From NCBI RefSeq assembly GCF_022809715.1, contig NZ_CP094461.1:744001-808000 (forward strand): DNA of 64,000 bases, written 5' to 3'. The position numbers and the translations under genes were made by a program. The notes under the pieces are model-generated. The model made no database searches, was not told where the DNA came from, and saw nothing but the letters and a program-made list of their open reading frames with translations. This document shows, piece after piece, positions 15,362 to 61,117 of the stretch (positions are counted from its first letter, which is position 1; each line of letters begins with the position of its first letter). This DNA comes from Burkholderia pyrrocinia (lineage in GTDB: Bacteria; Pseudomonadota; Gammaproteobacteria; Burkholderiales; Burkholderiaceae).

Positions 15362-15375
15362 GCACGCAGCGTGCC
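15362..15375 (-). promoter_or_regulatory. Near-match sigma-54 core (GGCACGCTGCGTGC)
   Basis: GG-N10-GC spacing with a perfect GGCACG -24 element and GTGC instead of TTGC at -12. It would drive the 80-aa gene starting at 15280 and is back to back with the stronger plus-strand core at 15381. Confidence 0.45.
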
Positions 15376-15380
15376 CGGCC

Positions 15381-15394
15381 GGCACGCGCCTTGC
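15381..15394 (+). promoter_or_regulatory. Sigma-54 promoter core (GGCACGCGCCTTGC)
   Basis: Exact GGCAC-N5-TTGC with GG-N10-GC spacing, identical over 14 bases to the core in front of the BON operon at 61104. It points to the small ORFs beginning at 15478 (84 bp). Confidence 0.7.
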
Positions 15395-15477
15395 GCCCCC
15401 TTGCGTCCCCTTACAGCCCCATTGCGCGTCGAACCGCTACCGGTAAGCGTTTGGGCGAAACGGAAGGAATGCACATC

Positions 15478-15609
15478 ATGATCGGGCACCTCGAACGCGT
15501 CGGCCCCCTGCTGCCGGCCGCGCTGCCCGGCACTCGTGATGCTCGCGGCTCGAATGCCGCGTCATCGCGCAGCGTCAACCGCGCACGCTGCGCTCGTCGT
15601 CGAGCGTAG
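15478..15609 (+). CDS. Possible small ORF, 43 aa
   Basis: A short frame (MIGHLERVGPLLPAAL...) with an AAGGA site nine bases upstream, lying behind the sigma-54 core at 15381. No family is recognised and the C-terminal half is Arg/Ser-rich. It could instead be the first part of a gene disrupted by a frameshift into the ORF at 15536. Confidence 0.3.
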   Translation: MIGHLERVGPLLPAALPGTRDARGSNAASSRSVNRARCARRRA

Positions 15610-15832
15610 CGATCTCACGCTCGGCACGCTGCACGATACACCCGGCGCGCGACGCGTGCGCGTGAAGCGGTTCATCGTCAGGCAGTCGGACGACGATCCG
15701 GACACCGACGACATCCCGGCCCCGTTCTCGCGCACGAGCGGACCGGAATTTGCAACGCTCGGCAAGACGCTGCAAAACATCGCCGGCGTGCGGACCTGCC
15801 GCCCCGACACTTCGTCAAGGAGCTTCGTGTGA
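15536..15832 (+). CDS. Possible ORF, 98 aa (GTG start)
   Basis: Its second half has coding-like composition (VKRFIVRQSDDDPDTDDIPAPFSRTSG) and its stop overlaps the GTG of the next gene (GTGTGA), as in coupled genes. The start is weak and no homologue comes to mind. It may be a real small protein or a decayed gene. Confidence 0.3.
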   Translation: MMLAARMPRHRAASTAHAALVVERSDLTLGTLHDTPGARRVRVKRFIVRQSDDDPDTDDIPAPFSRTSGPEFATLGKTLQNIAGVRTCRPDTSSRSFV

Positions 15833-16164
15833 CCCAGACCGACCTGCTCTCCTATCTCGTGACGAGCGAACTGGCCGCCCGCATGCGGTTCGGCGGATGG
15901 CTCACCATCAGCCAGCGCGTCGGTGCGCTGCGCGCGTGGCTCGCGTGCCATCACGCCGAATGCAGCTGGCTCGACCGGATCAGGATCGCGAGCGCAGCCG
16001 CGACGATCGCGCAGGAGATCTACGAGATCGCGGTCACGCACGGCCTCGAAAACGGCGAACGCGTACGGCTCGACGCCCGTTCGCCGGAGCTGCAGGCGCT
16101 GCGCGCCCGCTGCGACGTGCTGCTGCAGCGCATCGACGGCGACCGGGACGTCGACGCACGATGA
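15829..16164 (+). CDS. Hypothetical protein, 111 aa (GTG start)
   Basis: Soluble, mostly helical protein (TQTDLLSYLVTSELAARMRF... ending in DVDAR). The GTG has AAGGAG at good spacing and its stop overlaps the next ATG. No known domain is recognised. It is probably carried on the transcript from the sigma-54 core at 15381, just before the glycogen/trehalose operon. Confidence 0.6.
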   Translation: MTQTDLLSYLVTSELAARMRFGGWLTISQRVGALRAWLACHHAECSWLDRIRIASAAATIAQEIYEIAVTHGLENGERVRLDARSPELQALRARCDVLLQRIDGDRDVDAR

Positions 16165-16304
16165 TCGCGCCGGACCGCAGGAGCGTGCGGCTCGCCGCCA
16201 TCGCAACGGCAGGCCCGGACGATGCCGCGGCCGCCGCGCTGCCGCCGGACGACGATCGCGCCGCGGGCGACAGCACGGACATCCGCTCCATCCCGCGCAT
16301 GTAA
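16161..16304 (+). CDS. Possible small ORF, 47 aa
   Basis: Begins by an ATGA overlap with the 111-aa gene and reads MIAPDRRSVRLAAIATAG, followed by an Ala/Asp-rich stretch. The coupling is the only support; composition is low in complexity and no family is known. Confidence 0.3.
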   Translation: MIAPDRRSVRLAAIATAGPDDAAAAALPPDDDRAAGDSTDIRSIPRM

Positions 16305-16396
16305 GTGCAAGCGGCAGTACAGCGGTCATGTAAAAACGACAGCCCGCCGGCGCCGGCATCCCGCCTGACCATTGCCGCACCGGACTCCACGCGGCA

Positions 16397-16410
16397 GGCA
16401 CACGCGTTGC
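16397..16410 (+). promoter_or_regulatory. Sigma-54 promoter core of the glycogen/trehalose operon (GGCACACGCGTTGC)
   Basis: Exact GGCAC-N5-TTGC core with GG-N10-GC spacing, 46 bp from the glgE ATG. All seven downstream genes are on the same strand with overlaps or short gaps, so this single promoter could drive an 18-kb transcript. A TACA...TGTA symmetry about 80 bp upstream (16314-16326) is a weak activator-site candidate. Confidence 0.75.
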
Positions 16411-16455: not shown

Positions 16456-19400
16456 ATGGACTCCACGCCGACCTTCGCTCCGCATATCTATTTCTGCGAC
16501 GCTCGCCTCGTCGGGCCGCTCGACGCGTGGGGGCAGACCTGCGCGCATATCGCCGGAATGGGTTTCGATCACGTGCTGGTCGGGTCGTTCTGGGCCGCGA
16601 GCGTCGCCGGCTTCCCGCGCCACGTGGCCGATTTCCATCGCCCGGCCCACACGTTCGCGACGCGCGCGAGCGCGCTCGAAACGTTCTCGCGGCTCGCGCA
16701 GCTCGCGCACGGCCACGGGCTGCGCGTGCTGCTCGAAGTCGTGCCGGACCGCATCGCGCGCGAGAACCCGCTGCGCGCCGCGCATCCGGGCTGGTACGTC
16801 GAACGCACGCACGACGATGCGCTGATCGACCCGCGCGGTACCGCGCACGCGCTGGATGTCGTGCACGCGAACCTCGGCGACGACGCGGCACGCGACGCGC
16901 TGTCGGCGTGGTGGTGCGCGCATCTGGCCGCCTTTGCGGACGCGGGCGCGGCCGGCTTCCTGGTCGACGCGCCGCATCATCTGCCGGCCGACTGGTGGCC
17001 CGGCTGGCGCGCGGCGCTGCGCCGCGCGCGCCCGGACGCAGCGGTGCTCGCCGGCTTGCCCGGCCATGCGCGCGACGCGCTCGCGCAGCTCGAATCGGCC
17101 GGGTTCGATGCGGTGTTCTCGTCGGTGCGCTGGTGGGATCTGCACGCACCGTGGTTCGCCGACGAACACCGGCTGCTGCGGCGCATCGGCTCGCCGATCG
17201 CGTTTCCCGATGCGTTCGACGGCCCGCGCCTCGCCGACGACTGGCCCGACGCACCGGACGACACCGTCGCACGCGCATATCGCCGTGCACTGTGGACGGC
17301 CGCGGCCGTCGGCACCGGCTGGCTCGCGCCGATGGGCTTCGAGCGCGGCGTCACGCTGCCGCTGATGTCGCGCGACGCGGATGCCGATCGCTACCGCGCC
17401 GCGTTCGAGCATGCGCGCTTCGACCTGTCGGGTGCGATCGCCGAAGCGAACGCGTGGCGTCGCGCGACGCCCGTGGCGGCCGCGCGCGGCGAGATCGCGC
17501 AGCTGAGCGCGCCCGGTGCAACCGCGACGGTGCTGCTGCGCGGCACGGGGCCGTCGCTCGAACACGACGAAGCGGCACTGCTGATCGCGTTGAATCCCGA
17601 TCTCAACGCGTCGGTAACGGTCGAACCCGCAACGATCCTGCCCGGCGTGCCGGGCGGCTTCACGCGCATCGTGACGCAGGACGGCACGCAAACACAGCCG
17701 CCCACCGCGCTCGACGCCTTCACGCTCGGCCCCGGCGCGCATGCACTGCTGCATGCACGGCGCGCGCCGCCCGTCACGACGCGCGCCGACGCCGCGCGCG
17801 AACGCACGGTGCTGTCGGCCGCGCTCGCGGCCGACCGGATCGCGATCGAGCGCGTCGAGCCGTCGGTCGACGGCGGCCGCTTCGCGGTCAAGCGCGTGAT
17901 CGGCGAACCGCTCGTCGTGCATGCATCGATCTTCTCCGACGGGCACGCGCATCTCGCGGCCGCGCTCCAGTGGCGCGCGGAAGGCGACGACGACTGGCGC
18001 GAAGTGCCGTTCGAAGCCGAGCCGAACGACCGCTGGCACGCACGCATCATGCTCGACCGGGTCGGCCGCCACGCATTTCGCGTGATCGCGTGGCGCGACG
18101 ACTGGGCGTCGCTCGCCGACGACGTCGCGAAGAAACACGCGGCCGGCCAGGACGTGACGCTCGAACTGCGCGAAGCCCAGCTGCTGCTCGCGACCGCGCT
18201 CAAGCTCGCCGATCCGGCCGATGCGCGCGCGGTCCCGCACATGGAGCGCCTCGTCGCCGAGTTCAGGGACGCGCCGCCCGCCGAACGGCTCGCGCTGCTC
18301 GGCGCGCCGCCGCTGGCCGACGCGTTCGCCGCGCTGCGCTACCGGCCGTTCGTCACGCACGACGAAACCACCTATCGGGTCGACGTCGAGCGCCGCGCGG
18401 CGCGCTTCTCGAGCTGGTACGAGATGTTCCCGCGCTCGGCGAGCGACGATCCGCATCGGCACGGCACATTCGACGACGTGATCGCGCACCTGCCGCGCAT
18501 TCGCGACCTGGGTTTCGACGTGCTGTATTTCCCGCCGATCCACCCGATCGGCACCACCGCGCGCAAGGGCCGCAACAACAGCCTGAAAGCCGGCCCCGAC
18601 GACGTCGGCAGCCCGTATGCGATCGGCTCGCCCGACGGCGGCCACACGGCCGTGCACCCGCAGCTCGGCACGCTCGAATCGTTCCGCGCGCTGGTCGAGG
18701 CCGCGCGCGTTCACGGGCTCGAGATCGCGCTGGATTTCGCGATCCAGTGCTCGCCCGACCATCCGTGGCTCGCCGCGCATCCGGGCTGGTTCGCGTGGCG
18801 GCCCGACGGCTCGCTGCGCTTCGCGGAAAACCCGCCGAAGCGCTACCAGGACATCGTGAACCCCGATTTCTACGCGCCGGACGCGCTGCCCGGCCTGTGG
18901 CTCGCGCTGCGCGACGCGGTGCTGTTCTGGGTCGACGCGGGCGTGCGGATCTTCCGCGTCGACAATCCGCACACGAAGCCGCTGCCGTTCTGGGCGTGGA
19001 TGATCGACGACGTGCGCGGCCGCCATCCGGACGTCGTGTTCCTGTCCGAGGCGTTCACGCGGCCGGCGATGATGTACCGGCTCGCGAAGGTCGGCTTCTC
19101 GCAGTCGTACACGTACTTCACCTGGCGCGAGACGAAGCGCGAGTTCATCGACTACCTGACCGAGCTGACGGCCGGACCCGCACGCGACTTCTTCCGGCCG
19201 AACTTCTTCGTCAACACGCCCGACATCAACCCGCGCCACCTGCAGAACGCGCCGCGCACGCAGTTCGTGATCCGCGCGGCGCTCGCGGCGACGCTGGCCG
19301 GTTCATGGGGCATGTACTCGGGTTTCGAGCTCGGCGAATCGGCGCCGCTGCCGGACAGCGAGGAATACGCGAACGCGGAGAAGTACGAGCTGCGCGCGCG

Positions 19401-19844
19401 CGACTGGAGCCGCGCCGCGCACATCGGTGCCGAAGTCGCGCGGCTGAACCGCGCACGGCGCGATCACCCGGCGCTGCAGACGCATCTCGGCCTGACGTTC
19501 GCCGACGCGGACAACGACGCCGTGCTCGTGTTCGTCAAGGCGACGCCGGCGTTCGACAGCGTCGTCGTGGTCGCGATCAGCCTCGACCCGTGGCATCCGC
19601 AGGCCGCGAACTTCACGCTCGACGCCGCGCTGTGGCGCGGCTTCGGGCTCGCCGACGGCGAACCGCTCGACGCGCTCGAACTGGATGCCGCGCACGCGCA
19701 GACGTGGCGCGGCCATCGCCAGTACGTGTCGCTCGATCCGCACGTGCGGCCGTATGCGATCTGGCGGCTCGCGCCGTCTCCGGGCGCCGCGCGGGCGGCC
19801 GCGCCCGGACCGGACGACGCCCGACGACCTTCGGGAGCTCACGG

Positions 19845-19848
<4 letters not shown>
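16456..19848 (+). CDS. glgE: GlgE, alpha-1,4-glucan:maltose-1-phosphate maltosyltransferase with N-terminal amylase-like extension
   Basis: 1130 residues. The C-terminal two thirds are a complete GH13_3 Glg[35 protein letters not shown], nucleophile Asp in [11 protein letters not shown] (about residue 836) and acid/base Glu in LSEAFTRP (about 865). It transfers maltosyl units from maltose 1-phosphate to growing alpha-glucan. Classic GlgEs have about 650-700 residues; here some 430 extra N-terminal residues ([20 protein letters not shown]...) resemble another amylase-type barrel without an obvious catalytic set. No clear ribosome site supports the ATG chosen. It overlaps the next gene by ATGA. 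Confidence 0.9.
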
Positions 19849-23263
<3,415 letters not shown>

Positions 23264-23267
<4 letters not shown>

Positions 23268-25471
23268 CCGACACGCTGTTCGAACAGGCCGACATCGATG
23301 CGCTGCTCGCCGGCCGCCATCCCGATCCGTTCGCGTGTCTCGGCCCGCACGGGCAGGCCGACCGGATCGTCGTGCGCGCACTCTTGCCCGGCGCCGAACG
23401 CGTGCGCGCGCTGTCGCCGGACGGCGACGAACTCGGCGCGCTCGCGTGCGTCGACCGCGCCGGCTGCTTCGCCGGCACGATCGCGCACGACGGCGGAATT
23501 CCCCATTACCTGCTCGCGATCGACTGGCCTGACGCGCGGCAGGTGACCGACGACGCGTATGCGTTCGGCACGCTGCTCGACGACGCCGCGCTCGCGCGCT
23601 TCTCGTCCGGCGATCCGGCCGCCGTGCTCGACTGCCTGGGCGCGACGCCCGTGCGCATCGACGACACCGACGGCGTGCGCTTTGCGGTATGGGCGCCGAA
23701 CGCGCAGCGCGTGTCGGTGGTCGGCGATTTCAACGGATGGGACGGCCGCCGCCATCCGATGCGGCTGCGGCGGCCGTCGGGGGTATGGGAGCTGTTCGTG
23801 CCGGGCATCGGCGCGGGCGAACGCTACAAGTACGAGCTGCGCGCGGCCGACGGGCGCGTACTGCCGCACAAGGCCGATCCGTGCGCGCGCGCGACGGAAG
23901 CACCGCCGCGCACGGCGTCCGTCGTCGCCGACGTCGCGGCGCTCGACGCGTTCGCGTGGCACGACGACGGCTGGATGCATGCGCGGCCGCACGCCGACCG
24001 CTACCGCGTGCCGTGGTCGATCTACGAGGTGCATGCGGAATCGTGGTTGCGCGTGCCCGAGGAGATGGACCGCAGCGCGACGTGGGACGAGCTGGCGGAG
24101 CGGCTGATTCCGTACGTGCACGGGATGGGCTTCACGCACGTCGAGTTCATGCCGATCGCCGAATACCCGTTCGGCGGCTCGTGGGGCTACCAGCCGCTCG
24201 CGCAGTTCGCGCCGTCCGCGCGCTTCGGGCCGGTCGACGGCTTCGCGCGGTTCGTCGACCGCGCGCATGCGGCCGGCATCGGCGTGATCGTCGACTGGGT
24301 GCCCGCGCATTTCCCCGACGATCCGCACGGCCTCGCGCAGTTCGACGGCACCGCGCTGTACGAGCATGCCGACCCGCGCGAGGGGCTGCATCCCGACTGG
24401 CACACGTGCGTGTTCAACGTCGGGCGCACCGAGGTCGGCGCGTTCCTCGTCGCATCGGCGCTCGCGTGGGCGCGCCGCTATCACGTCGACGGCATTCGCG
24501 TCGACGCGGTCGCGTCGATGCTGTACCGCGACTATTCGCGCAACGAAGGCGAATGGGTGCCGAACGTGTACGGCGGGCGCGAGAACCTCGAATCGGTCGC
24601 ATTCCTGCGCATGCTGAACGACACGCTGCACGGTGCGGCCGCGCCGCCCGGCGTCGTCACCGTCGCGGAGGAATCGACCGCGTGGCCCGGCGTCACCGCG
24701 CCGACCGGCGACGGCGGGCTCGGCTTCGACTTCAAGTGGAACATGGGGTGGATGCACGACACGCTCGCGTATCTGCGCGAGGACCCGATCCACCGCCGCT
24801 ATCACCACGACCGGATGACGTTCGGGCTCATCTACGCGTTCTCCGAGCGCTTCGTGCTGCCGCTGTCGCACGACGAGGTCGTGCACGGCAAGGGCTCGCT
24901 CGTCGCGAAGATGCCGGGCGACGCGTGGCAGCGGCTCGCGACGCTGCGCGCGTACTTCGGCTTCATGTGGGCGCACCCCGGCAAGAAGCTGCTGTTCATG
25001 GGCAGCGAGTTCGCGCAATGGGCCGAGTTCGCGCACGACTCGACGCCGCACTGGGACCTGCTCGACGCGCCCGCGCATCGCGGCGTGCAGCGGCTCGTGC
25101 GCGACCTGAACCGCGCGTATGCGGCCGAACCCGCGCTGCATGCGCTCGACTGCCACGCGGCCGGCTTCGCCTGGCTGATCGGCGACGACCGCGACAACAG
25201 CGTGTTCGCGTTCGCGCGCCGCGACGATGCGGGGCACCTGGTGGTCGCGGTCTGCAACTTCACGCCGGTGCCGCGCACCGGCTACCGCGTCGGGCTGCCG
25301 GCGCCCGGCCAATGGCGCGAACGGATGAACACCGACGCCGCGTCGTACGGCGGCACCAATGCCGGCAACGACGGTGCCGTGTGGGCCGAGGCCGTGCCCG
25401 CGCACGGCGAGGCGTGGTCGGCAGCGCTGCGCCTGCCGCCGCTCGCGACGCTGTGGCTGAGCCCCGCCTGA
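23264..25471 (+). CDS. glgB: GlgB, 1,4-alpha-glucan branching enzyme
   Basis: 735-residue GH13 branching enzyme that cuts alpha-1,4 chains and rejoins them as alpha-1,6 branches. An N-terminal module and CBM48 domain ([23 protein letters not shown]) precede the barrel. Motifs: ETHAESWLR-like [20 protein letters not shown], nucleophile Asp in [16 protein letters not shown] (about 414), Glu in [10 protein letters not shown] (about 469) and [13 protein letters not shown]. The ATG overlaps the treS stop and has a strong GGAGG site. In this operon it branches the GlgE product. Confidence 0.96.
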
Positions 25472-25505
25472 TTCCCCGCCCCTTCGACACGGAGATATCC
25501 GCCCC

Positions 25506-27620
25506 ATGCCGAGTGCCCTGCCCGCTCGCCTCGAATCCGGCCGCCGCTATCCGCTCGGCGCGACCTGGGACGGCCTCGGGACCAACTTCGCGGTGTTTTC
25601 CGCGCACGCGCAGCGCATCCAGCTGTGCGTGTTCGATCCGACCGGCCGCAGGGAACTCGCGCGCCTCGATCTGCCCGAATGCACCGACGAGGTGTGGCAC
25701 GGCTACCTGCCCAACGCGCATCCGGGCACCGTGTACGGGTTTCGCGCGGACGGCCCGTACCAGCCGCAGCACGGCCATCGCTTCAATCCGACCAAGCTGC
25801 TGCTCGACCCATACGCGCGCAAGCTGGTCGGCCATTTCCGCTGGTCGGACGCGCTGTTCGGCTATCGCGTGCATTCGAACCGCGCGGACCTGTCGATGGA
25901 CCGGCGCGACTCGGCGCCCGCGATGCCGAAATGCGTGGTGGTCGACGAGGCGTTCGACTGGAGCACCGACCGGCGCCCGCGCGTGCCGTGGCGCAGCACG
26001 GTGATCTACGAGGCGCACGTGCGCGGCGTGTCGATGCGCCGCGCCGGGCTGCGCGCGCCCGAACGCGGCACGTTCTCGGCGTTGGCGCATCCGGCTTTCA
26101 TCGATCATCTGCTGTCGATCGGCGTGACGACGGTCGAGCTGCTGCCCGTCCACGCGTTCCTGCAGCAGCGCGAACTCGTGAAACGCGGGCTGCGCAACTA
26201 CTGGGGCTATGACACGGCCGCGTTCTTCGCGCCGGAACCCGCGTATCTCGCGACGCGGCGGCTCGACGAGATGCGCATCGCGATCCGCCAGCTGCATGCG
26301 GCCGGCATCGAGGTCGTGCTCGACGTCGTCTACAACCATACTTGCGAAGGCAACGAGCTCGGCCCGACGCTGTCGTGGCGCGGCCTCGACAACGCGAGCT
26401 ACTACCGGCTCCTGCCGGGCGACCATCGTTTCCACGTCGACGAGACGGGCTGCGGCAACACGCTGAACCTGTCGCACCCGCGCGTCGTGCAGATGGTGAT
26501 GGATTCGCTGCGCTACTGGGCCACCGCGTTCAACGTCGACGGCTTCCGCTTCGATCTCGGCGTGACGCTCGGCCGCGAGGATCACGGCTTCGATCCCGGC
26601 GCGGGATTTTTCGATGCGCTGCGGCAGGACCCGGTGCTCGCGCAGCGCAAGCTGATCACCGAGCCGTGGGATCTCGGCCCCGGCGGCTACCAGCTCGGCC
26701 GCCACCCGCCGGGCTTCGCCGAATGGAACGACCGCTTTCGCGACACCGTGCGGCGCTTCTGGCGCGGCGACGCGGGCCAGCGGCCGGAACTCGCCGCGCG
26801 GCTCGCGGGGTCGGCCGACCTGTTCAACCACCAGCGGCGCCATACGTGGGCGTCGGTCAATTTCGTCACCGCGCACGACGGTTTCACGCTCGCCGATCTC
26901 GTGTCGTATGCGGACAAGCACAACGACGCGAACGGCGAGGACAACCGCGACGGCCGCGACGACAACTGCAGCGCGAACTGGGGCGTCGAAGGGCCGAGCG
27001 CCGACGCGGCGATCCGCGACGTGCGCGCGCGCGTCGCGCGCTCGATGCTCGCGACGCTGTTCACCGCGCTCGGCACGCCGATGCTCGTCGCCGGCGACGA
27101 GTTCGGCCGCACCCAGCACGGCAACAACAACGCGTACTGCCAGGACAACGAGCTGTCCTGGCTCGACTGGGACCTGGCACGCAGCGACGAAGCCGTGAAG
27201 CTGATGCGCTTCGTATCGCGGCTCGCCGCGCTGCGGCGCATGTACCCGCTGATGTCGGCGCCGCGCTATCCGTCGGGCGATCACGACGGCGCGCCCGGCA
27301 TGGCCGAGATCGACTGGTTCGACGAACGCGGCGACGCGCTGACCGTGCCCGCGTGGCACGACCGCGAACGCCGCGCGCTGACGATGCGGCGCGTCGGCGC
27401 GGGCCGCACCGGGCGCACCGAATCGCTGCTCGTGATGCTGAACGCGTCGTCCGAGACGATCACGTTCGCGCCGCCCGCGCCCGTGCTCAACTATCGCGTG
27501 CTGGTCGACACCGCCGCGCCGGACGCCGGCCCGCGCGCATGGCCGGCCGACGGCCTCGACGTCGCCGCGCATGCGGCCGCGGTCGCCGTCGCGGCCGTGC
27601 CGCCCGACCCGCCTTCGTGA
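25506..27620 (+). CDS. glgX: GlgX, glycogen debranching enzyme
   Basis: 704-residue isoamylase-type GH13_11 enzyme. CBM48 at the N-terminus (YPLGATWDGLGTNFAVFSAHA), then RNYWGYD, VYNHTCEGNE, nucleophile Asp in DGFRFDLGVTLGRE, acid Glu in LITEPWDLGPGGYQ and VNFVTAHDGFTLADLVSY, all family hallmarks. It releases linear maltooligosaccharides from branched glucan, providing TreY substrate. It starts 34 bp after glgB with GGAGA upstream. The C-terminus is short and Ala/Pro-rich. Confidence 0.96.
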   Translation: MPSALPARLESGRRYPLGATWDGLGTNFAVFSAHAQRIQLCVFDPTGRRELARLDLPECTDEVWHGYLPNAHPGTVYGFRADGPYQPQHGHRFNPTKLLLDPYARKLVGHFRWSDALFGYRVHSNRADLSMDRRDSAPAMPKCVVVDEAFDWSTDRRPRVPWRSTVIYEAHVRGVSMRRAGLRAPERGTFSALAHPAFIDHLLSIGVTTVELLPVHAFLQQRELVKRGLRNYWGYDTAAFFAPEPAYLATRRLDEMRIAIRQLHAAGIEVVLDVVYNHTCEGNELGPTLSWRGLDNASYYRLLPGDHRFHVDETGCGNTLNLSHPRVVQMVMDSLRYWATAFNVDGFRFDLGVTLGREDHGFDPGAGFFDALRQDPVLAQRKLITEPWDLGPGGYQLGRHPPGFAEWNDRFRDTVRRFWRGDAGQRPELAARLAGSADLFNHQRRHTWASVNFVTAHDGFTLADLVSYADKHNDANGEDNRDGRDDNCSANWGVEGPSADAAIRDVRARVARSMLATLFTALGTPMLVAGDEFGRTQHGNNNAYCQDNELSWLDWDLARSDEAVKLMRFVSRLAALRRMYPLMSAPRYPSGDHDGAPGMAEIDWFDERGDALTVPAWHDRERRALTMRRVGAGRTGRTESLLVMLNASSETITFAPPAPVLNYRVLVDTAAPDAGPRAWPADGLDVAAHAAAVAVAAVPPDPPS

Positions 27621-27628
27621 GGACCGCC

Positions 27629-29500
27629 ATGACGTCACGTTCCGCTCATCCGCCCGGCACGCATGCGTTCGCGTCGTCGTTCGGCGCGACCTGCATCGAT
27701 GCGGGCCATACGCGCTTCCGGCTGTGGGCGCCCGCGAGCCGCACCGCGGCCGTCGAGCTGCACGACCCGAGCGACCGCACGATCGCAATGACGCCGGCCG
27801 GCGACGGCTGGTTCGAAGCGCTCGCGCCGTGCGGGTCCGGCACGCTGTATCGCTACCGGCTCGACGGCGCACTCACGGTGCCCGATCCCGCGTCGCGCTT
27901 CCAGCCGTACGACGTACACGGCCCGAGCCAGGTCGTCGATCCGGCCGCGTATCGCTGGCGTCACGACGCATGGCGCGGCCGCCCGTGGCACGAGACGGTG
28001 CTGTACGAACTGCACGTCGGCGCATGCGGCGGCTACGCGAGCGTCGAGCGGCGCCTGCCGGCCATCGCCGCGCTCGGCGTGACGGCGATCGAGCTGATGC
28101 CCGTCAATGCGTTCCCCGGCACGCGCAACTGGGGTTACGACGGCGTGCTGCCGTTCGCGCCCGATGCATCGTACGGGCGGCCCGACGAGTTGAAGGCGCT
28201 CATCGACGCCGCGCACGGGCTCGGGCTGCAGATGTTCCTGGACGTCGTCTACAACCACTTCGGCCCCGACGGCAACCTGCTGCCGCGCTACGCGCCCGCG
28301 TTCTTCCGCGCGGACCGGCAAACGGCGTGGGGCCCCGCGATCGACTTCGCGCGTGCGCAGACGAGCGCGTTCTTCATCGACAACGCGCTCTACTGGCTCG
28401 ACGAATACCGCTTCGACGGGCTGCGCATCGACGCCGCGCATGCGATCGACGACGATGCGTGGCTGCGCGAGCTCGCGCGCCGCGTGCGCGCGCATGCGGG
28501 CGACGCACGCCACGTGCATCTCGTGCTCGAGAACGAACGCAATGCGGCGAGCCTGCTCGGGCCCGGCCGTTTCGATGCGCAATGGAACGACGATTTCCAC
28601 AACAGCGCGCACGTGCTGCTGACCGGCGAGCGCGACGGCTATTACCGCGCGTACGCCGACGCGCCGCTGCGCCATTTCGCGCGCACGCTCGGCGAAGGCT
28701 TCGCGTACCAGGGCGAGCCGTCGCCGCTGCATGACGGCGCCGCGCGCGGCGAGCCGAGCGCGCACCTGCCGCCGACCGCGTTCGTCGCGTTCCTGCAGAA
28801 CCACGACCAGATCGGCAACCGCGCGTTCGGCGAACGGCTGCGCACGCTCGCGAACGACGATGCGCTCCGCGCGGCCACCGCGCTGATGCTGCTCGCGCCG
28901 CAGATTCCGCTGCTGTTCATGGGCGAGGAGGAAGGCAGCACGCAGCCGTTCCAGTTCTTCACCGACTATCGCGGCGCGCTCGCCGACGCCGTGCGCGAAG
29001 GCCGGCGCCGCGAATTCGCGGCGTTTCCCGCGTTCGCCGATCCCGCGCATCGCGACGCGATTCCCGATCCGAACGACATCGCGACGTTCGTGCGCTCGTT
29101 GTCGAAACACCCGGCCGACGAAGCATGGCCCGACGCCGACGCATGGCGGCGCTTCTACCGCAGCGCGCTGGCCGTGCGCGCGGCGCTCGTGACGCCGCAC
29201 CTGACGGGCGCGCGCGCGCTCGGCGTCGACCTGCTCGCGGGCGACGGCGAACCGCAGGCGCTCGCCGCACGCTGGCGGCTCGGCAACGGCAGCACGCTGA
29301 CGATCGCGCTGAACCTCGGCTCGCACGACGCGGTGCTGCCCGCGCTGCCGGTCGGCAAGATCGTGTTCGAGACGCCGCCGCGCGCGCGCGACCGGCTGCG
29401 CGACCTGCGCCTGCCGCCACGTGCGTGCATCGCGTGGCGCGACGGCGCGGTCAACGACGATGCGCTGAGTCACCGCCCGAACGGGCGAGGCCCATCATGA
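27629..29500 (+). CDS. treZ: TreZ, malto-oligosyltrehalose trehalohydrolase
   Basis: 623-residue GH13_10 enzyme that cuts trehalose from the end of maltooligosyltrehalose. CBM48-like N-terminus (RFRLWAPASRTAAVELHD), then RNWGYDGVLPFAPDASYG, FLDVVYNHFGPDGNLLPRYA, nucleophile Asp in GLRIDAAHAI, Glu in LVLENERNAASLL and FLQNHDQIGNRAFGERL. It lies eight bp after glgX with a GAGGA site and overlaps malQ by ATGA. It works with TreY at the far end of the operon. Confidence 0.95.
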   Translation: MTSRSAHPPGTHAFASSFGATCIDAGHTRFRLWAPASRTAAVELHDPSDRTIAMTPAGDGWFEALAPCGSGTLYRYRLDGALTVPDPASRFQPYDVHGPSQVVDPAAYRWRHDAWRGRPWHETVLYELHVGACGGYASVERRLPAIAALGVTAIELMPVNAFPGTRNWGYDGVLPFAPDASYGRPDELKALIDAAHGLGLQMFLDVVYNHFGPDGNLLPRYAPAFFRADRQTAWGPAIDFARAQTSAFFIDNALYWLDEYRFDGLRIDAAHAIDDDAWLRELARRVRAHAGDARHVHLVLENERNAASLLGPGRFDAQWNDDFHNSAHVLLTGERDGYYRAYADAPLRHFARTLGEGFAYQGEPSPLHDGAARGEPSAHLPPTAFVAFLQNHDQIGNRAFGERLRTLANDDALRAATALMLLAPQIPLLFMGEEEGSTQPFQFFTDYRGALADAVREGRRREFAAFPAFADPAHRDAIPDPNDIATFVRSLSKHPADEAWPDADAWRRFYRSALAVRAALVTPHLTGARALGVDLLAGDGEPQALAARWRLGNGSTLTIALNLGSHDAVLPALPVGKIVFETPPRARDRLRDLRLPPRACIAWRDGAVNDDALSHRPNGRGPS

Positions 29501-46380: not shown

Positions 46381-46394
46381 GCAGCTTTCGTGCC
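46381..46394 (-). promoter_or_regulatory. Sigma-54-type core upstream of rpoN2 (GGCACGAAAGCTGC)
   Basis: TGGCACG is perfect at -24 and spacing is GG-N10-GC; -12 is CTGC rather than TTGC. It lies 51 bp from the rpoN2 ATG, suggesting autoregulation. A partial match to the conserved element (TTACAAGCCGG, 46469-46479, opposite orientation) lies about 80 bp upstream. Confidence 0.6.
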
Positions 46395-46763: not shown

Positions 46764-46777
46764 CGCAACGCGCATGC
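46764..46777 (-). promoter_or_regulatory. Sigma-54 promoter core (GGCATGCGCGTTGC)
   Basis: Exact GGCAT-N5-TTGC with GG-N10-GC spacing, 68 bp from the 46696 start. Confidence 0.68.
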
Positions 46778-46797
46778 CGTGCGACACACGCAATGCG

Positions 46798-47735: not shown

Positions 47736-47749
47736 GCAATCCGCGTGCC
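47736..47749 (-). promoter_or_regulatory. Sigma-54 promoter core (GGCACGCGGATTGC)
   Basis: Exact GGCACG-N4-TTGC, 54 bp from the 47682 start. About 80 bp upstream (47819-47847) lie TACA and repeated TTGCAA half-sites. Confidence 0.75.
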
Positions 47750-47852
47750 GTCCGTTCGCGACGCCCGCACGCCGGCGCTGCCGCGCATACGCGCGCGCGG
47801 CGCGCGCCGTGCATTCGCTACACCGTTCGCTGCAATTCTTGCAAGCGCGCCG

Positions 47853-48258: not shown

Positions 48259-48272
48259 GCAAATCGCGTGCC
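48259..48272 (-). promoter_or_regulatory. Sigma-54 promoter core (GGCACGCGATTTGC)
   Basis: Exact GGCACG-N4-TTGC, 104 bp from the 48155 start, and divergent from the plus-strand core at 48285, which begins 12 bases away. Confidence 0.7.
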
Positions 48273-48284: not shown

Positions 48285-48298
48285 GGAACGGCCGTTGC
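48285..48298 (+). promoter_or_regulatory. Near-match sigma-54 core (GGAACGGCCGTTGC)
   Basis: GG-N10-GC with perfect TTGC and one change at -24 (GGAAC), 40 bp from the 48338 start. Confidence 0.55.
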
Positions 48299-48621: not shown

Positions 48622-48635
48622 GGCATGCGGTTTGC
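48622..48635 (+). promoter_or_regulatory. Sigma-54 promoter core (GGCATGCGGTTTGC)
   Basis: Exact GGCAT-N5-TTGC followed by T, 51 bp from the ATG of the CBS-domain gene. Confidence 0.75.
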
Positions 48636-48685: not shown

Positions 48686-49117
48686 ATGCATCGCGTCAAC
48701 GAAATCATGTCGCAGGACGTCGTGTGCATCGCGCCGACCGACTCGATCCGCCATGCCGCGCAACTGATGGAGCGCTACGACATCGGCGCGCTGCCCGTGT
48801 GCGACAACAACCGGCTGATCGGGATGGTGACGGACCGCGATCTCGCGGTGCGCGCGATCTCGGCCGGCAAGCCGCCGGAGACGCGGATTCACGAAGTCGC
48901 GTCGGGCCCGATCGAATGGTGCTTCGACGACGATTCGCTGGAAGAGATCCAGCACTACATGGCAGACGCACAGTTGCGCCGCCTGCCCGTCGTCGATCAC
49001 GACAAGCGGCTGGTCGGCATGCTGTCGCTCGCGGACATCGCGACGCGCTCGGCCGGCCCGACGCACGACGACGTCGCGAACACGCTCGAAGGCGTGTCGC
49101 AGCCGAGGCAGACGTGA
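48686..49117 (+). CDS. CBS-domain pair protein
   Basis: 143 residues made of two CBS domains: VNEIMSQDVVCIAPTDSIRHAAQLMERYDIGALPV with DNNRLIGMVTDRDLAVRAI, then DDSLEEIQHYMADAQLRRLPVVDHDKRLVGMLSLADIA. Such stand-alone pairs bind adenosine nucleotides and act as energy or stress sensors. AAGGAGG precedes the ATG. The PRC-barrel gene follows after 95 bp, probably on the same transcript from the core at 48622. Confidence 0.92.
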   Translation: MHRVNEIMSQDVVCIAPTDSIRHAAQLMERYDIGALPVCDNNRLIGMVTDRDLAVRAISAGKPPETRIHEVASGPIEWCFDDDSLEEIQHYMADAQLRRLPVVDHDKRLVGMLSLADIATRSAGPTHDDVANTLEGVSQPRQT

Positions 49118-49212
49118 CGGGTCGAGCCTGCGCTTCGCCCCGTCCCGACCACCCGCGCGACCCGCGGCCCGCCCGGGCACGATCGCGCACCACGCAGCCT
49201 GGAGGAAACACC

Positions 49213-49695
49213 ATGCAGACTTCCAATCAAGGTCAGACCCGCATCATCGGCAAGGGCGCCGCAACGGCGGCCGGCCCCGGCCCCGACGTCATGGCGGCCA
49301 ATACGCTGGAAGGCGACAAGGTCTACACGACCGACGGCGACGACGTCGGCAAGATCAAGGACATCATGCTCGACGTGCGTTCGGGCCGCATCGCGTACGC
49401 GGTGCTGTCGAGCGGCGGCCTGCTCGGCATCGGCGACAAGCTGCTCGCGATCCCGTGGAGCGCGCTGACGCTCGACACCGAGCGCAAGTGCTTCCTGCTG
49501 TCGGTGTCGTCGGAGCGGATCAAGAACGCCCCCGGCTTCGACAAGGACCACTGGCCGGCGATGGCCGATCCGCAATGGGCCGAGCCGCTGCACGAGTACT
49601 ACGGCAGTGCGCCGTACTGGAGCCCCGGCGACGAGCTCGGGCTGACCGATCCGACCGAGGAACTGAACAATCCGCGCACCCGCGACCCTCATTGA
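49213..49695 (+). CDS. PRC-barrel domain protein
   Basis: 160 residues. The PRC-barrel (NTLEGDKVYTTDGDDVGKIKDIMLDVRSGRIAYAVLSSGGLLGIGDKLLAIPWSAL) is followed by a tail typical of stress-related soluble members. Function unknown; the fold binds partner proteins in RimM and photosynthetic reaction centres. GGAGG precedes the ATG. A strong terminator follows 21 bp after the stop, ending the island. Confidence 0.9.
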   Translation: MQTSNQGQTRIIGKGAATAAGPGPDVMAANTLEGDKVYTTDGDDVGKIKDIMLDVRSGRIAYAVLSSGGLLGIGDKLLAIPWSALTLDTERKCFLLSVSSERIKNAPGFDKDHWPAMADPQWAEPLHEYYGSAPYWSPGDELGLTDPTEELNNPRTRDPH

Positions 49696-52013: not shown

Positions 52014-52023
52014 GCACGAGCCA

Positions 52024-55791: not shown

Positions 55792-55828
55792 TGCGCGTTT
55801 GCGCCGCGATTCCACCCGACCCGAGCCG

Positions 55829-57284: not shown

Positions 57285-57893
57285 TCACATCATCTTGCCG
57301 CGCGAACGTTCGGCGCGTGCCGCATCGGCCGCCGACTCGACCTTCTTCACTTCCTCCGGCGGCGGCAGCACGGCCTTGAAGCCCATCGACTCGATCCACA
57401 TCTCGCGTGCCCAGCCGCGCGTGTGGTACAGGTGGTGATCCTCGTCTGCCTCGACCTCGTCGTGCGCGCCCTTCAGCACCTTCGCGGCATCGCCCGACAA
57501 CTGGTCGGCCGCATAGCCGATCAGTTCCCAGTTCAGGTGGTCCTTGGTCTCGGCGAGCACCACGCATTCGGCCGCGACGACCTGCGCGACGGCCGGATCG
57601 GCCTGCTTGCGCGCCTGCTCGATCACGTGGACGAGCGACTTCCCGGTGGCCGCCACCGCGCTGCGTCCGGGCGACTGCGCGTCGGGGTCCATGCCGAGCG
57701 CGTCGAACACCTTGCGCAGCACCTCCTGATGATGGAGCGTCTCGCGATGGTACTTCTCCCATTCCTTGTGCAAATCCTCGTCGGTCGCGCACTGCAGCGC
57801 AGCCTCGTAGATCTTCGCGCCGCCAAGCTCGGTTTCATACGCCTGACAAAGCAGTTCGCGGATGCCTTCGTGCTTCTGTTGCCGGTGTGCCAT
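57285..57893 (-). CDS. Ferritin-like domain protein
   Basis: 202 residues, almost all helical. It carries the paired Glu/His pattern of ferritin-like di-iron bundles: RELLCQAYETELGGAKIYEAAL, WEKYHRETLHHQEVL, VVAAECVVLAETKDHLNWELIG and DEVEADEDHHLYHTRGWAREMW. It may detoxify peroxide or hold metal under stress. It begins 53 bp after the DUF4142 gene and is last in the run from the BON gene. Confidence 0.82.
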   Translation of the reverse strand: MAHRQQKHEGIRELLCQAYETELGGAKIYEAALQCATDEDLHKEWEKYHRETLHHQEVLRKVFDALGMDPDAQSPGRSAVAATGKSLVHVIEQARKQADPAVAQVVAAECVVLAETKDHLNWELIGYAADQLSGDAAKVLKGAHDEVEADEDHHLYHTRGWAREMWIESMGFKAVLPPPEEVKKVESAADAARAERSRGKMM

Positions 57894-57946
57894 GAATGTC
57901 TCCAGGATACGGCCGCGCATGCGGCCCGGGGTTGAACGGGCACGCG

Positions 57947-58519
57947 TTATTGCGTACCCACCTTGCGTTCGAGCGCCTGTGCCATGCTCAGGTGATGCCT
58001 GAGCGTCGGCAGCGCGGCGCTCGCGAACGCGCGCAGTTCGGCGTCCCTGCCGTCGCGCGCCTCGCCTTCGAACAGCGCGACGGCCTTGCGGTGCGCATCG
58101 GGGCCGGCCGCCGCGACGTATGCGACATCGAAATCGCGGCCGCGCTTGCCGCGCAGCGCCTCGACGTCCGGGTCCGCGATCTGATCGGCCTGCGGCTTCA
58201 TGCCCTTGCGCGCGGCAATCTCGTTCAGCCGCGCGTTCGCCTTGCCGTGATCGGCCACCATGCGCTGCGCGAACGCGCGCACGTCCGGCGACTGCGCCTG
58301 CTTCAGCGCAAGCTGGCTCGCCTGCACCTCGGCCTTGCCGGCGATCGCGGCCTTGTCGATGAATTCCGCGTCGCCGCCTTGCGGCGCCTTCACGATGCGC
58401 GCGTCGCCAGCGCCCGACGACGGGTCGATCACGCCGCCCGGCATCTGCGCATGCGCGAGGCCCGGGACAGCGAGCGCGAGCGCGGCGAGTGCCGCGATCG
58501 TCCAGTTGAACTGCTTCAT
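57947..58519 (-). CDS. DUF4142 exported protein
   Basis: 190 residues: signal peptide (MKQFNWTIAALAALALAVPGLAHAQ), then the DUF4142 four-helix domain (FIDKAAIAGKAEVQASQLALKQAQSPDVRAFAQRMVADHGKANARL ... ALPTLRHHLSMAQAL), a ferritin-like fold without obvious metal ligands, located in the periplasm. AAGGAGA precedes the ATG. It pairs naturally with the next ferritin-like gene. Confidence 0.9.
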   Translation of the reverse strand: MKQFNWTIAALAALALAVPGLAHAQMPGGVIDPSSGAGDARIVKAPQGGDAEFIDKAAIAGKAEVQASQLALKQAQSPDVRAFAQRMVADHGKANARLNEIAARKGMKPQADQIADPDVEALRGKRGRDFDVAYVAAAGPDAHRKAVALFEGEARDGRDAELRAFASAALPTLRHHLSMAQALERKVGTQ

Positions 58520-58651
58520 CCGTCTTCTCCTTGCTTGGGGGCGGCCGGGACGGACAACCGCCCGCCGCTGCCGATCGAACCGCCGTTCGGGCGCGATGTC
58601 CGGCCCGCCCGCCGCTCGCGAAATCGGACACGAGCGGCACGTTGCAGCCGA

Positions 58652-59221
58652 TCAGTTCGTCCTGCTCCCCGACGCGGCGTCGTCCGGCCGGCGCACCGGA
58701 TCGAAGTCGCGCCATTCGCCGTCCTGCCAGTCGCCTTCGACGCGCTCGATCGACATCGCGCCGCTCGCGCGCAGCACGCCCTCCGCCGTGTTCGCGGTAT
58801 CGGACGTCACGCGCGCGGCCAGGATCACGCCGGTGTCGCTGTGCGCGAGCGTGCCCTTGCCTTCGGCGCGCTCGCCGCGCATCCGGCCGAGCGCGCCGCC
58901 GAACGCGCCGAGATACGCGCCGGCCAGCGCGCCGGCGGCCGGTACGAACCACTCGCGCTCGCCGAGTGCGTAAACGGCCAGCCCCGCGACGGCGCCGATC
59001 AGCAACCCGCGCATCGCGCCGATCATCGCGCCGCGGCCGCCCGGCTTAGCCGCCGAGTCGGCATATACGTCGCCGCCGATCGGAAAGCGCGCATGCTGGC
59101 CGCCCGGGTTCAGGAAGAAGATCGACACGTCGTCCGGGCCGAACGCGCGTTCGTACAGATAGCGCGCCCCGCCTTCCGCTTCATCGAACGTCGTGAAGCG
59201 GCCTGCGACGATCATCGCCAT
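58652..59221 (-). CDS. Glycine-zipper membrane protein, unknown function
   Basis: 189 residues. The N-terminal domain (AGRFTTFDEAEGGARYLYERAFGPDDVSIFFLNPGGQH) is followed by two Gly/Ala-rich membrane segments (GAMIGAMRGLLIGAVAGLAVYAL; AAGALAGAYLGAFGGALG) and a C-terminal domain resembling heat-induced YflT-type proteins. It is probably an inner-membrane stress protein. GAGGAGA precedes the ATG; DUF2795 lies 51 bp upstream. Confidence 0.72.
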   Translation of the reverse strand: MAMIVAGRFTTFDEAEGGARYLYERAFGPDDVSIFFLNPGGQHARFPIGGDVYADSAAKPGGRGAMIGAMRGLLIGAVAGLAVYALGEREWFVPAAGALAGAYLGAFGGALGRMRGERAEGKGTLAHSDTGVILAARVTSDTANTAEGVLRASGAMSIERVEGDWQDGEWRDFDPVRRPDDAASGSRTN

Positions 59222-59272
59222 GTTCGTCTCCTCGTAACGGTGCGCCGGGCGTACGGCGCGGCACGGCGGCGC

Positions 59273-59572
59273 TCACATCAGCCGCCCGAGTTCCTTCGAC
59301 ACGGACGCCGGCGTGCCGTATTCGCGATCGGGAATGCGCGTGAGCAGGTCGATCACGCCGCGGTCCGCATGCGCGCGCTCCGCGCACTGGACGACGTCCG
59401 CCTTGCTCGCCGGATAGTCGAGCCCCTTCAGCGTCTTCCGGATGTCGACCGGGCCCGGCGCCTTGCCGTGCCCTGCCTGGTGGCCGCCCTTGTCGCGGTC
59501 CTGCACCGCGCGCTCGCCTTCGTGCGAACGCGAGCGACTGAGTTCGTGGCCCGTATGCAATCGGGATGTCAT
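59273..59572 (-). CDS. DUF2795 domain protein
   Basis: 99 residues. The hydrophilic N-terminus (SRSRSHEGERAVQDRDKGGHQAG) precedes the DUF2795 fold (DIRKTLKGLDYPASKADVVQCAERAHADRGVIDLLTRIPDREYGTPASV), a small helical domain thought to be nucleic-acid or protein binding. AAGGAGG precedes the ATG. It follows the SDR by 34 bp. Confidence 0.86.
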   Translation of the reverse strand: MTSRLHTGHELSRSRSHEGERAVQDRDKGGHQAGHGKAPGPVDIRKTLKGLDYPASKADVVQCAERAHADRGVIDLLTRIPDREYGTPASVSKELGRLM

Positions 59573-59606
59573 CGAAGCCTCCTTCGGAAAAAATGCCGGG
59601 CTCGGC

Positions 59607-60632
59607 TCACGTGGAAGCGCGTCGCGAACGCGCGAGCGCGGCGACCACGAGCGCCGCGCCCAGCGCGACCGCACCCGCGACCTTCGGCCGCTGCACCACC
59701 GTGTTGTACGCGCAACCGCGCAGCACCGGCCCGTCCATGCCTTCGCGCTCGTGCAGCGCGTGGCGCGACTCGTACAGCGCGTTGTCGTCGCGCGGCCGCG
59801 CGGGCCGCACCGTGCGCTGGCCGCGCGAGAACAGCGTGGCCGCGACGCGATCGAACAGGTGCGGCGCGTGGTACGCGCTCGCCGACGCGAATTTCGCGGC
59901 GCCGCCGACGAACAGCGTGCGGCGCGCGTGCGCGGCCGCGAACAGGATCGCGTCGGCGACGAGGGTGGGGTCGTAGATCGGCGGCGGCAGCTTCGCCTCG
60001 ACGTTCATGTAGTTCTTCGCGTGCATCACGAACATCGTGTCGATCGCTGCCGGCTTGATCAGCGTGACGGATACGGGCAGGTGGTCCGCTTCCATTTCGA
60101 GCCGCAGCGAATCGGTGAAGCCCTTCACCGCATGTTTCGACGCGACGTAGGCGCTTTGCAGCGGCACCGGCGCGTCGGACGCCTCGCTGCCCATGTTGAT
60201 GATCGCGCCGCCGTGGAAATCGCTCTTGCGCCGGAAATGGTCGGACGCGACGAGCGACCCATGCACGACGCCCCAGTAGTTGGTATCGAACAGCCGCCGC
60301 TGATCCTCGAGCGGCACGGCAGCCGCCGTGCCGAAGATCGACACGCCCGCGTTGTTGATCCACGTGTCGAAACCACCATATGTATCGACCGCGGTCGCGG
60401 CCGCGCGCTGCAGATCCTCGATGTTGCCGACGTCGCCGGCGACCGGCACCGCGAGACCGCCGTGCTGGCGGATTTCGTCGCACAGCGTGTTCAGCGCCTC
60501 CTGGTTGCGTGCGAACAGCACGAGCTTCGCGCCGCGCCGTGCCGCCTTGCGCGCGGTGACGAGGCCGATGCCGCTGGTCGCGCCGGTAATCACGATCGTC
60601 TGCTCGCCGACCGGTTTGAGCATGCAGTTCAT
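59607..60632 (-). CDS. Short-chain dehydrogenase with C-terminal membrane anchor
   Basis: 341 residues. SDR motifs: IVITGATSGIG, NNAG, Ser in INMGSEAS and YVASK. The C-terminal 90 residues are an extension ending in a hydrophobic segment (VAGAVALGAALVVAALARS), likely an inner-membrane anchor. Similar longer SDRs sit in Burkholderia stress clusters; substrate unknown. AGGAG precedes the ATG, 27 bp after the BON gene. Confidence 0.88.
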   Translation of the reverse strand: MNCMLKPVGEQTIVITGATSGIGLVTARKAARRGAKLVLFARNQEALNTLCDEIRQHGGLAVPVAGDVGNIEDLQRAAATAVDTYGGFDTWINNAGVSIFGTAAAVPLEDQRRLFDTNYWGVVHGSLVASDHFRRKSDFHGGAIINMGSEASDAPVPLQSAYVASKHAVKGFTDSLRLEMEADHLPVSVTLIKPAAIDTMFVMHAKNYMNVEAKLPPPIYDPTLVADAILFAAAHARRTLFVGGAAKFASASAYHAPHLFDRVAATLFSRGQRTVRPARPRDDNALYESRHALHEREGMDGPVLRGCAYNTVVQRPKVAGAVALGAALVVAALARSRRAST

Positions 60633-60659
60633 GACTGGACTCCTGTTACGGCGCCGACG

Positions 60660-61052
60660 TCACTTGGGCCGGATTGTCAGCTGATCGCGCACGCTCCGTA
60701 CGCCGTCGAGCTGCTTCACGACGCCGACGGCCTGCGTACGCTGCTGCTCGTCGGGCACGCTGCCGGTGAGCGTCACGATGCCGCGCCGCGTCTTCACATG
60801 GATGTCGCCGGCCGTCAGGCCGCTCGTGCCGATGAGTTCGGCCTTCGCCTTGGTCGTGATCGTCGCGTCGCGGATCTTCGTGCCGGTCGTCGAATGCGAC
60901 GACGACGCGGCGCTGTCGTCGCCGGCGGCGAGTACGTTCGGCGCGACCATTGCGCAGGCCGTGGCCGCGGCAATCGCGACGGCCATGCCGATGCGCTTCG
61001 CGGGGTGACTGCCCGATCGCGCGGAACGGGCTTGCAGCGGGAATATCCTCAT
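60660..61052 (-). CDS. BON-domain exported protein
   Basis: 130 residues. A signal peptide (RIGMAVAIAAATACAMVAPNVLAAG) precedes one BON domain (DATITTKAKAELIGTSGLTAGDIHVKTRRGIVTLTGSVPDEQQRTQAVGVVKQLDGVRSVRDQL). OsmY-type BON proteins protect the periplasm in osmotic stress. AAGGAGGT precedes the ATG. It heads a six-gene run reaching the ferritin-like gene, with an exact sigma-54 core 52 bp upstream. Confidence 0.9.
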   Translation of the reverse strand: MRIFPLQARSARSGSHPAKRIGMAVAIAAATACAMVAPNVLAAGDDSAASSSHSTTGTKIRDATITTKAKAELIGTSGLTAGDIHVKTRRGIVTLTGSVPDEQQRTQAVGVVKQLDGVRSVRDQLTIRPK

Positions 61053-61103
61053 CGTGACCTCCTTTCGTCGGGCCGGCATGGCCGGCGGGCACGTGTCACC
61101 CGC

Positions 61104-61117
61104 GCAAGGCGCGTGCC
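61104..61117 (-). promoter_or_regulatory. Sigma-54 promoter core of the BON operon (GGCACGCGCCTTGC)
   Basis: Exact GGCACG-N4-TTGC, 52 bp from the ATG and identical over 14 bases to the core at 15381 some 46 kb away. Element copy 3 lies about 77 bp upstream. Confidence 0.78.

Follow-up and report, generated by a model that had tools for sequence, protein, structure and literature searches.

Are the −24/−12 cores that cluster in one stretch of the third replicon of Burkholderia pyrrocinia the promoters of a single regulon and, if so, which sigma-54 and which activator serve them? The stretch is a window of 64,000 nucleotides (assembly GCF_022809715.1, contig NZ_CP094461.1, positions 744,001 to 808,000 of the forward strand) on C3, a 1.05-Mb replicon of a 7.69-Mb genome in three contigs. 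An earlier note on its sequence had proposed a clustered sigma-54 regulon spanning storage-carbohydrate, stress and repair genes. We consider it probable that the cores mark a sigma-54 regulon, some 55 kb long and largely self-contained, in which a hybrid histidine kinase and an NtrC-type response regulator switch on storage-sugar and stress operons dependent on RpoN2, a second sigma-54 encoded in the same island.

Density and conservation of the −24/−12 cores

Exact cores were defined by the pattern GGCAY-N5-TTGC, which sets GG and GC ten bases apart as in the −24/−12 consensus, and near matches by one mismatch. The ten exact cores of the earlier note are all present, one of them at 46765 instead of 46764, as are its six near matches, each with a single mismatch. 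Three further exact cores lie at 25365(-), within glgB, at 44967(-), within rpoN2, and at 61206(+), with no same-strand gene near downstream, while an exact core was not found in window positions 1-15380. The 13 exact cores of the window compare with 1.54 predicted from the rate outside it (Poisson P for at least 13 = 1e-8, a post hoc value because the window was selected for its sites), which bears out the claim of a density above chance. Genome-wide, 197 exact cores on both strands compare with 96 matches to the pattern read backwards, so that about half of them may be chance. The scan of C3 gave 41 exact cores, 14 of them within C3:744001-830000. Intergenic exact cores lying at most 200 bp before a same-strand predicted start number nine in the 55-kb island and five in the other 998 kb of C3, compared with one and one for the backward pattern under the same filter. 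For the 16 sites themselves, the first gene calls placed eight at 37-54 bp from a start. The earlier count of 11 at 37-68 bp was recovered, at 32-54 bp, only after three starts had been moved upstream, those at 61052 and 38535 on the strength of conserved start regions and the one at 48227 on visual inspection of the sequence; the five sites outside this distance are 15362, 15381, 36684, 38440 and 46765.

We followed the cores upstream of orthologous genes in two sets. The first comprises our own genome and 60-kb rpoN2 regions from 12 of the 53 rpoN2-bearing genomes elsewhere in the genus, and a core counts there if it has no more than one mismatch and lies in the 220 bp before the orthologue; the second comprises 33 named loci, from genomes that partly overlap the first. 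The core of glgE, which heads a likely operon for glycogen and trehalose synthesis, is kept in 4/4 regions of the first set. A genus-wide search found GlgE in 35 of 65 genomes and provided loci for 30, of which 29 show the start (L270, where the match starts only at residue 451, is not in the promoter count). In all 29, our own included, a core lies 41-50 bp before the start, exact in 27, with 3/30 for the reversed core and 3/30 for the opposite strand. The rpoN2 core is present in 13/13 regions (one exact) and 33/33 loci (five exact). In the same order of sets, cores precede open reading frame (ORF) 34724 (6/6 exact; 2/2, one exact), the DJ-1/PfpI gene (6/6, four exact; 7/7 exact), the DUF3175 gene (7/8 exact; 16/16 exact), ORF 47440 (5/5 exact; 8/8, seven exact), ORF 47853 (7/8 exact; 15/15 exact) and the CBS gene (8/8 exact; 14/16 exact). 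In the first set they also precede the BON gene (9/9, eight exact) and, right of the window, a Rieske/FAD gene at 67378 (5/5). Alignments show conserved −24 and −12 elements around a drifting spacer. The cluster of sigma-54-type promoters that the earlier note placed ahead of the glgE operon and of small stress genes is supported, and these promoters are conserved upstream of orthologues.

Support is uneven among the remaining sites. The phosphatidylserine decarboxylase (PSD) gene has a one-mismatch core in 6/6 regions and 1/3 loci, with a reversed control of 3/6 in the first set. ORF 36366 has a near core in 8/9 (one exact, reversed control 2/9) and 10/11 (none exact), its position and letters varying among species. 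ORF 48338 scores 10/10 (three exact) and 16/16 (ten exact), and its site is weaker than it appears because the reversed control is also high (4/10 and 12/16). Apart from these three genes, reversed controls in the first set are mostly 0 or 1. Conservation is weak for sites 15362 (3/5, DUF6566 gene), 15381 (2/5, ORF 15829) and 38440 (3/8 and 5/16, ORF 37930), so that the view of the sites as gene promoters stands for most of them and is poorly supported for 15381 and 38440. A core counted before the DUF3008 gene (9/9 and 19/21) was set aside, as it falls in the rpoN2 coding sequence (44967).

The inclusion of repair genes was not supported: an upstream core was found before LigD in 0/6 regions and 0/13 loci and before Ku in 1/6 and 0/13, so both could be reached only by read-through. 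Upstream cores were also found in 0/12 for the second activator gene and in 0/3 or 0/4 for each of six transporter and LysR genes at 49890-57046 (first set). The earlier note's statement that LysR and transporter genes have no site is right as far as exact cores go; cores with one mismatch do occur before the MFS gene at 12731 (2/4, first set) and the LysR gene at 53404 (2/4 named loci, at a distance of just 13 bp).

These counts also bear on the possibility that the cluster arose by chance or through the base composition of GC-rich intergenic DNA, which we regard as very improbable. One-mismatch cores are indeed common (447 on the rest of C3, outside the island; a core with at most one mismatch in 4.2% of random one-strand 180-bp stretches of C3), the reversed controls of ORF 48338 and the PSD gene are high, and chance would fit 25365 and 44967, both inside genes. 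Against this stand the excess of intergenic near-start cores in the island and the conservation of cores whose spacers vary, and the C3 tally and the 29/29 for glgE refute it for the main sites, a group to which 15381, 38440, 46765 and 61206 do not belong.

RpoN2, its probable partner proteins and a candidate activator site

Of the two sigma-54 genes in the genome, one lies on C1 and the other, rpoN2, on C3; RpoN2 carries the activator-interacting, core-binding and DNA-binding domains (PF00309, PF04963 and PF04552) above cut-off. The earlier note correctly reported a sigma-54 gene in the window, and the Fis-type response regulator it also placed there proved to be the C-terminal end of an NtrC-type protein (63789-65156) with receiver (PF00072), sigma-54 AAA+ (PF00158) and Fis helix-turn-helix (PF02954) domains. 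It is this full activator, mostly beyond the window edge, that matters most for the mechanism. Strong sigma-54 activator domains number 22 genome-wide, two of them just right of the window. The usual activator loop is GAFTGA; that of the regulator is the variant GSFTGA.

RpoN2 (at least 64% identity) and the regulator (at least 81%) occur in the identical 54 of 65 genus genomes and are both absent from the same 11, and they lie within 40 kb of each other in 46 of the 54. GlgE is present in 35 of the 54 genomes with RpoN2 and in 0/11 without it. A relative of the kinase is found in the 60-kb rpoN2 region of 11/12 relatives, where RpoN2, kinase and regulator stay close, while the gene content around rpoN2 differs between species. 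One of the 11 genus genomes that lack both RpoN2 and the regulator, G021, has rpoN2 fragments (G021:C2:2607150-2607529), and the regulator and GlgE were not found there; the system seems to have decayed. Extra response-regulator copies (61-75% identity) occur in G014, G015, G028, G038, G042 and G050.

An initial dyad count on upstream regions of our own genome gave nothing useful. Unsupervised expectation-maximisation on 61 upstream sequences (best of 140 starts) returned a near-palindrome, which we reduced by hand to TGMAA-N3-TTKCA. In its strict form this motif has 24 genomic occurrences, compared with 3 for its backward control. Three of the 24 fall in the island, where each precedes a core by 73-81 bp, and three of the other 21 have a core within 180 bp. 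A slightly looser form is kept in orthologous regions before ORF 47440 (13/13), ORF 36366 (16/20), the DJ-1 gene (11/13) and the BON gene (8/14), and four control repeats scored 0 at every promoter tested. Before glgE, a conserved block, TGTAAAAACGACA, lies 55 bp upstream of the −24 element (by hand count) and may be a degenerate copy of the inverted repeat. We infer that the NtrC-type regulator is the binder of these repeats. Separately, a 13-base repeat, TGAAAATGTTTCA, occurs at C3:1052958 and C1:1082545 (L224:1501), 68 bp from a core at both (exact on C3, one mismatch on C1); the C1 copy lies near another activator gene, and TGAAAATGTTTCA is perhaps the site of a different activator.

Conserved sites, conserved gene linkage and co-occurrence are directly established, and they are consistent with the following mechanism. 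The hybrid kinase would sense a stress as its stimulus and phosphorylate the adjacent NtrC-type regulator, which, perhaps with the short second activator, would bind repeats near TGMAA-N3-TTKCA, 55-81 bp upstream of −24 elements, and activate sigma-54 polymerase. The operons switched on would include glycogen and trehalose synthesis (glgE to treY, presumably by read-through), small envelope and general stress proteins (BON, CBS, PRC, DJ-1, DUF3175 and others) and RpoN2 itself. RpoN2, rather than RpoN1, would be the sigma serving the island, and rpoN2 would start from a sigma-54 promoter that RpoN1 may drive. By its gene content, to which the general-stress label is owed, the island looks like a stress-and-sugar-storage programme.

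Spread beyond the genus and competing explanations

In a survey of 249 genomes of the family (RpoN2-like match at E <= 1e-112, regulator at E <= 1e-150), 125 had an RpoN2-like protein and 162 the regulator. Among 98 RpoN2 genomes of other genera, where some assignments rest on score only (51-53% identity), the regulator lies at most 12 kb away in 63, among the matches listed; one more, G080, has a regulator whose position is not among the matches listed. Each of the three Nevskia loci packs RpoN2, a hybrid kinase and the regulator into about 12 kb, along with what tblastn shows as a second activator-like gene (incomplete in L179); the Pfam run covered L176 alone. GlgX-TreZ-TreY genes are encoded upstream of rpoN2 and on its strand, at a distance of 4.3 kb in L176 and 1.9 kb in L179, and other genes separate them from it; the L178 sequence ends on the sugar-gene side. 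A core stands 38-58 bp before rpoN2 in 16/16 of loci L164-L179 (Paraburkholderia and Nevskia among them; the loci overlap the 33-locus set) and at that distance in one of the other 42 loci (L192, 42 bp). A tree of 24 proteins gathers the RpoN2 of Burkholderia, Paraburkholderia and Nevskia and one from Comamonadaceae in one clade (support 100/98), apart from the RpoN1 of our own genome and adjoining a betaproteobacterial RpoN1 pair; the placement of the Comamonadaceae row, which sits on a long branch, is unsure. That Comamonadaceae locus, L215, holds RpoN2, an activator and Ku. We tentatively propose, as an idea that is plausible and still somewhat short of probable, that a portable sigma-54 general stress response, made up of RpoN2, the hybrid kinase, the NtrC-type regulator and the short activator, is present in beta- and gammaproteobacteria alongside storage-sugar genes and plays the part RpoS has for the Pseudomonas glgE/treS operons.

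Several findings weigh against an RpoN2-dependent regulon, in the island or as a travelling unit. The repeat occurs at just 4 or 5 of about 13 promoters, and in orthologous regions it is found before ORF 48338 in 3/26, rpoN2 in 1/46, glgE in 0/4 and the CBS gene in 0/24. In the first set, a site is missing before the kinase gene in 11/12 and before the regulator gene in 11/12, and cores appear before non-targets (PRC gene 2/10, DUF4142 gene 2/7 and the MFS gene already mentioned). The presence of RpoN2 and GlgE follows phylogeny, so the co-occurrence tests are not independent. Within the family, the regulator is found in 37 genomes that lack RpoN2, at 70% identity in some of them, and the regulator subfamily is therefore wider than RpoN2. 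The regulator is distant or on another contig in 34 of the 98 genomes of other genera, a count in which draft assemblies can hide linkage. The Nevskia sugar genes do not adjoin rpoN2, and L215 has no core before rpoN2 or its other genes and one reversed-control match instead.

The spacer form GGCAYGCGNNTTGC belongs with these findings. Eight of its 23 genome occurrences are in the island, and we considered it as a mark of RpoN2 promoters. This was rejected: 14 such cores lie on C1 and C2, six in genes and eight intergenic, the latter including glnK- and ureA-like genes, and glnK and ureA are classical sigma-54 targets, so GGCAYGCGNNTTGC is no mark of RpoN2. Intergenic GGCAYGCGNNTTGC cores on C1 and C2 were seen near position 2001 of L130, L135, L136, L140 and L141, ahead of genes that, judged by eye, encode urease gamma, GlnK, a PhnB-like protein, a chloride channel and a PQQ dehydrogenase.

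It is conceivable that these are genuine sigma-54 promoters driven by RpoN1 with another activator, RpoN2 being a passenger or minor partner. The cores match the classical consensus, the glnK- and ureA-like genes share a spacer form with the island, 22 strong activator domains are available, and rpoN2 mutants of Ralstonia solanacearum are described as without phenotype in the conditions tested (PMC4371752, PMC4676750). We nevertheless find this account unlikely, if the most serious competitor, given that RpoN2, kinase and regulator are linked in 11/12 Burkholderia regions and in Nevskia and that GlgE occurs only in genus genomes having RpoN2. Less likely still is that several unrelated activators act here and that the cluster is a gathering place of sigma-54-dependent operons on the third replicon. 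The restriction of the repeat to 4 or 5 promoters and the variable gene content around rpoN2 among species would suit it, but the linkage to one regulator is kept and the glgE block may be a degenerate copy of the same repeat. A regulon served by RpoN2 and its neighbouring regulator remains the reading we favour.

Layout of the island and known systems

Table 1. Elements and genes of the island, in window coordinates
Feature	Position	Strand	Basis
glgE operon −24/−12 element	16397..16410	+	exact core; 29/29 genomes
glgE-treS/maltokinase-glgB-glgX-treZ-malQ-(76-aa ORF)-treY, likely operon	16456..34480	+	ORFs, Pfam
−24/−12 element for ORF 34724-34966	35015..35028	-	exact core, conserved
Near −24/−12 element (GGCAA) for PSD gene	35036..35049	+	one mismatch
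PSD-like gene	35086..36336	+	Pfam PF02666, PF12588
Near −24/−12 element for ORF 36366-36593	36684..36697	-	conserved near core
Candidate activator site (inverted repeat TGMAA-N3-TTKCA), 76 bp before −24	36774..36786	.	16/20 orthologous regions
DJ-1/PfpI gene, then DUF1488 gene 36859-37200	37205..37753	-	Pfam
−24/−12 element for DJ-1/PfpI gene	37804..37817	-	exact core, conserved
Inverted repeat, candidate activator site, 73 bp upstream	37891..37903	.	11/13 orthologous regions
−24/−12 element for DUF3175 gene	38475..38488	+	exact core, conserved
DUF3175 gene	38535..38891	+	Pfam PF11373; start at conserved ATG region
DUF3008, DUF1328, DUF3022 genes after rpoN2	44617, 44409, 44026		Pfam
rpoN2, second sigma-54 gene	44891..46330	-	Pfam PF00309, PF04963, PF04552
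Near −24/−12 element of rpoN2	46381..46394	-	one mismatch; 13/13 and 33/33
Exact core, target uncertain: 84-aa ORF 46443-46697 or rpoN2 435 bp away	46765..46778	-	
−24/−12 element for ORFs 47440-47682, 47132-47443, 46798-47106	47736..47749	-	exact core, conserved
Inverted repeat, candidate activator site, 81 bp upstream	47831..47843	.	13/13 orthologous regions
−24/−12 element for ORF 47853-48227 (start by eye)	48259..48272	-	exact core, conserved
Near −24/−12 element for ORF 48338-48589	48285..48298	+	one mismatch; high reversed control
−24/−12 element for CBS gene	48622..48635	+	exact core, conserved
CBS-domain gene and PRC-barrel gene	48686..49695	+	Pfam
BON, SDR, DUF2795, ORF 58652, DUF4142, DUF892-like genes	57285..61052	-	Pfam
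−24/−12 element for BON gene, possible operon	61104..61117	-	9/9, 8 exact (first set)
Candidate activator site (looser inverted repeat), 61 bp upstream	61179..61191	.	8/14 orthologous regions
Hybrid histidine kinase (DUF4118, PAS, HisKA, HATPase, receiver)	61406..63712	-	Pfam
NtrC-type response regulator, to 65156 beyond window	63789..64000	-	PF00072, PF00158, PF02954
Second activator without receiver, right of window	65507-66553		

The names treZ and treY were assigned from domains plus gene order. The first 460 or so residues of GlgE (16456-17835) have no Pfam match, and the alignment spans them in 28 relatives. A Pfam match was likewise not found for the 84-residue ORF 46443-46697. The genes from BON to the DUF892-like gene are, from their spacing, a possible operon read from the BON promoter. 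Divergent back-to-back −24/−12 pairs, with 5-12 bp between the elements, occur at 35015-35049, 48259-48298 and 15362-15394; in the first two, both sides are conserved in the first set, and two polymerases could hardly occupy such a pair simultaneously. To the right of the window, a short ORF at 66960-67088 (L011:2960-3088), with a near core 56 bp upstream, resembles by eye the start of an alcohol dehydrogenase and is possibly a remnant.

Sigma-54 requires an ATP-driven activator and hence provides a tight on/off switch. A 2015 paper in AEM (Applied and Environmental Microbiology) reportedly deals with the sigma-54 response of B. cenocepacia H111. Among the titles and abstracts of the best-ranked open-access matches, we found no description of sigma-54 control of a GlgE operon. 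A transcription start survey of B. cenocepacia J2315 reported no sigma-specific motifs (PMC4603805). Stress genes are also clustered on a secondary replicon of the same genus in the low-oxygen-activated (lxa) locus of B. cenocepacia, which differs in running from BCAM0275 to BCAM0323 with universal stress proteins, alpha-crystallin and phosphofructokinase (PMC6127331); the term 'rpoN' is absent from the main text of that paper. These three Pfam families were not found among the window proteins scanned (the scan left out short ORFs 16161, 31473, 34724, 36366, 43691 and 47440 and genes before 12731), and we rejected an identity of the island with the lxa locus on gene content.

A second sigma-54 gene is carried by many multi-replicon Burkholderiales, and its role has been called enigmatic (PMC4371752). 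The RpoN2 of R. solanacearum (RSp1671) resembles ours, by the published description, in being a second sigma-54 on the second replicon that is not interchangeable with RpoN1 and whose expression requires rpoN1 (PMC4371752, PMC4676750); it differs in that its authors, in the account given there, found no role for it (PMC4371752). Our data would provide RpoN2 with a concrete set of candidate targets, along with a likely activator and a candidate site on the DNA. Rhodobacter sphaeroides likewise has a dedicated second sigma-54 with its own targets, but these are described as flagellar genes rather than stress and storage genes (PMC12316311, PMC3162934). The closest parallel in enzymes is offered by the glgE/treS/treYZ operons of Pseudomonas fluorescens, whose expression is reported to be lowered, like that of other stress genes, in an rpoS mutant, so that the sigma there is RpoS and not sigma-54 (PMC6372562). 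If our reading is true, storage-sugar and general stress genes that depend on RpoS in P. fluorescens can, in other bacteria, fall under sigma-54.

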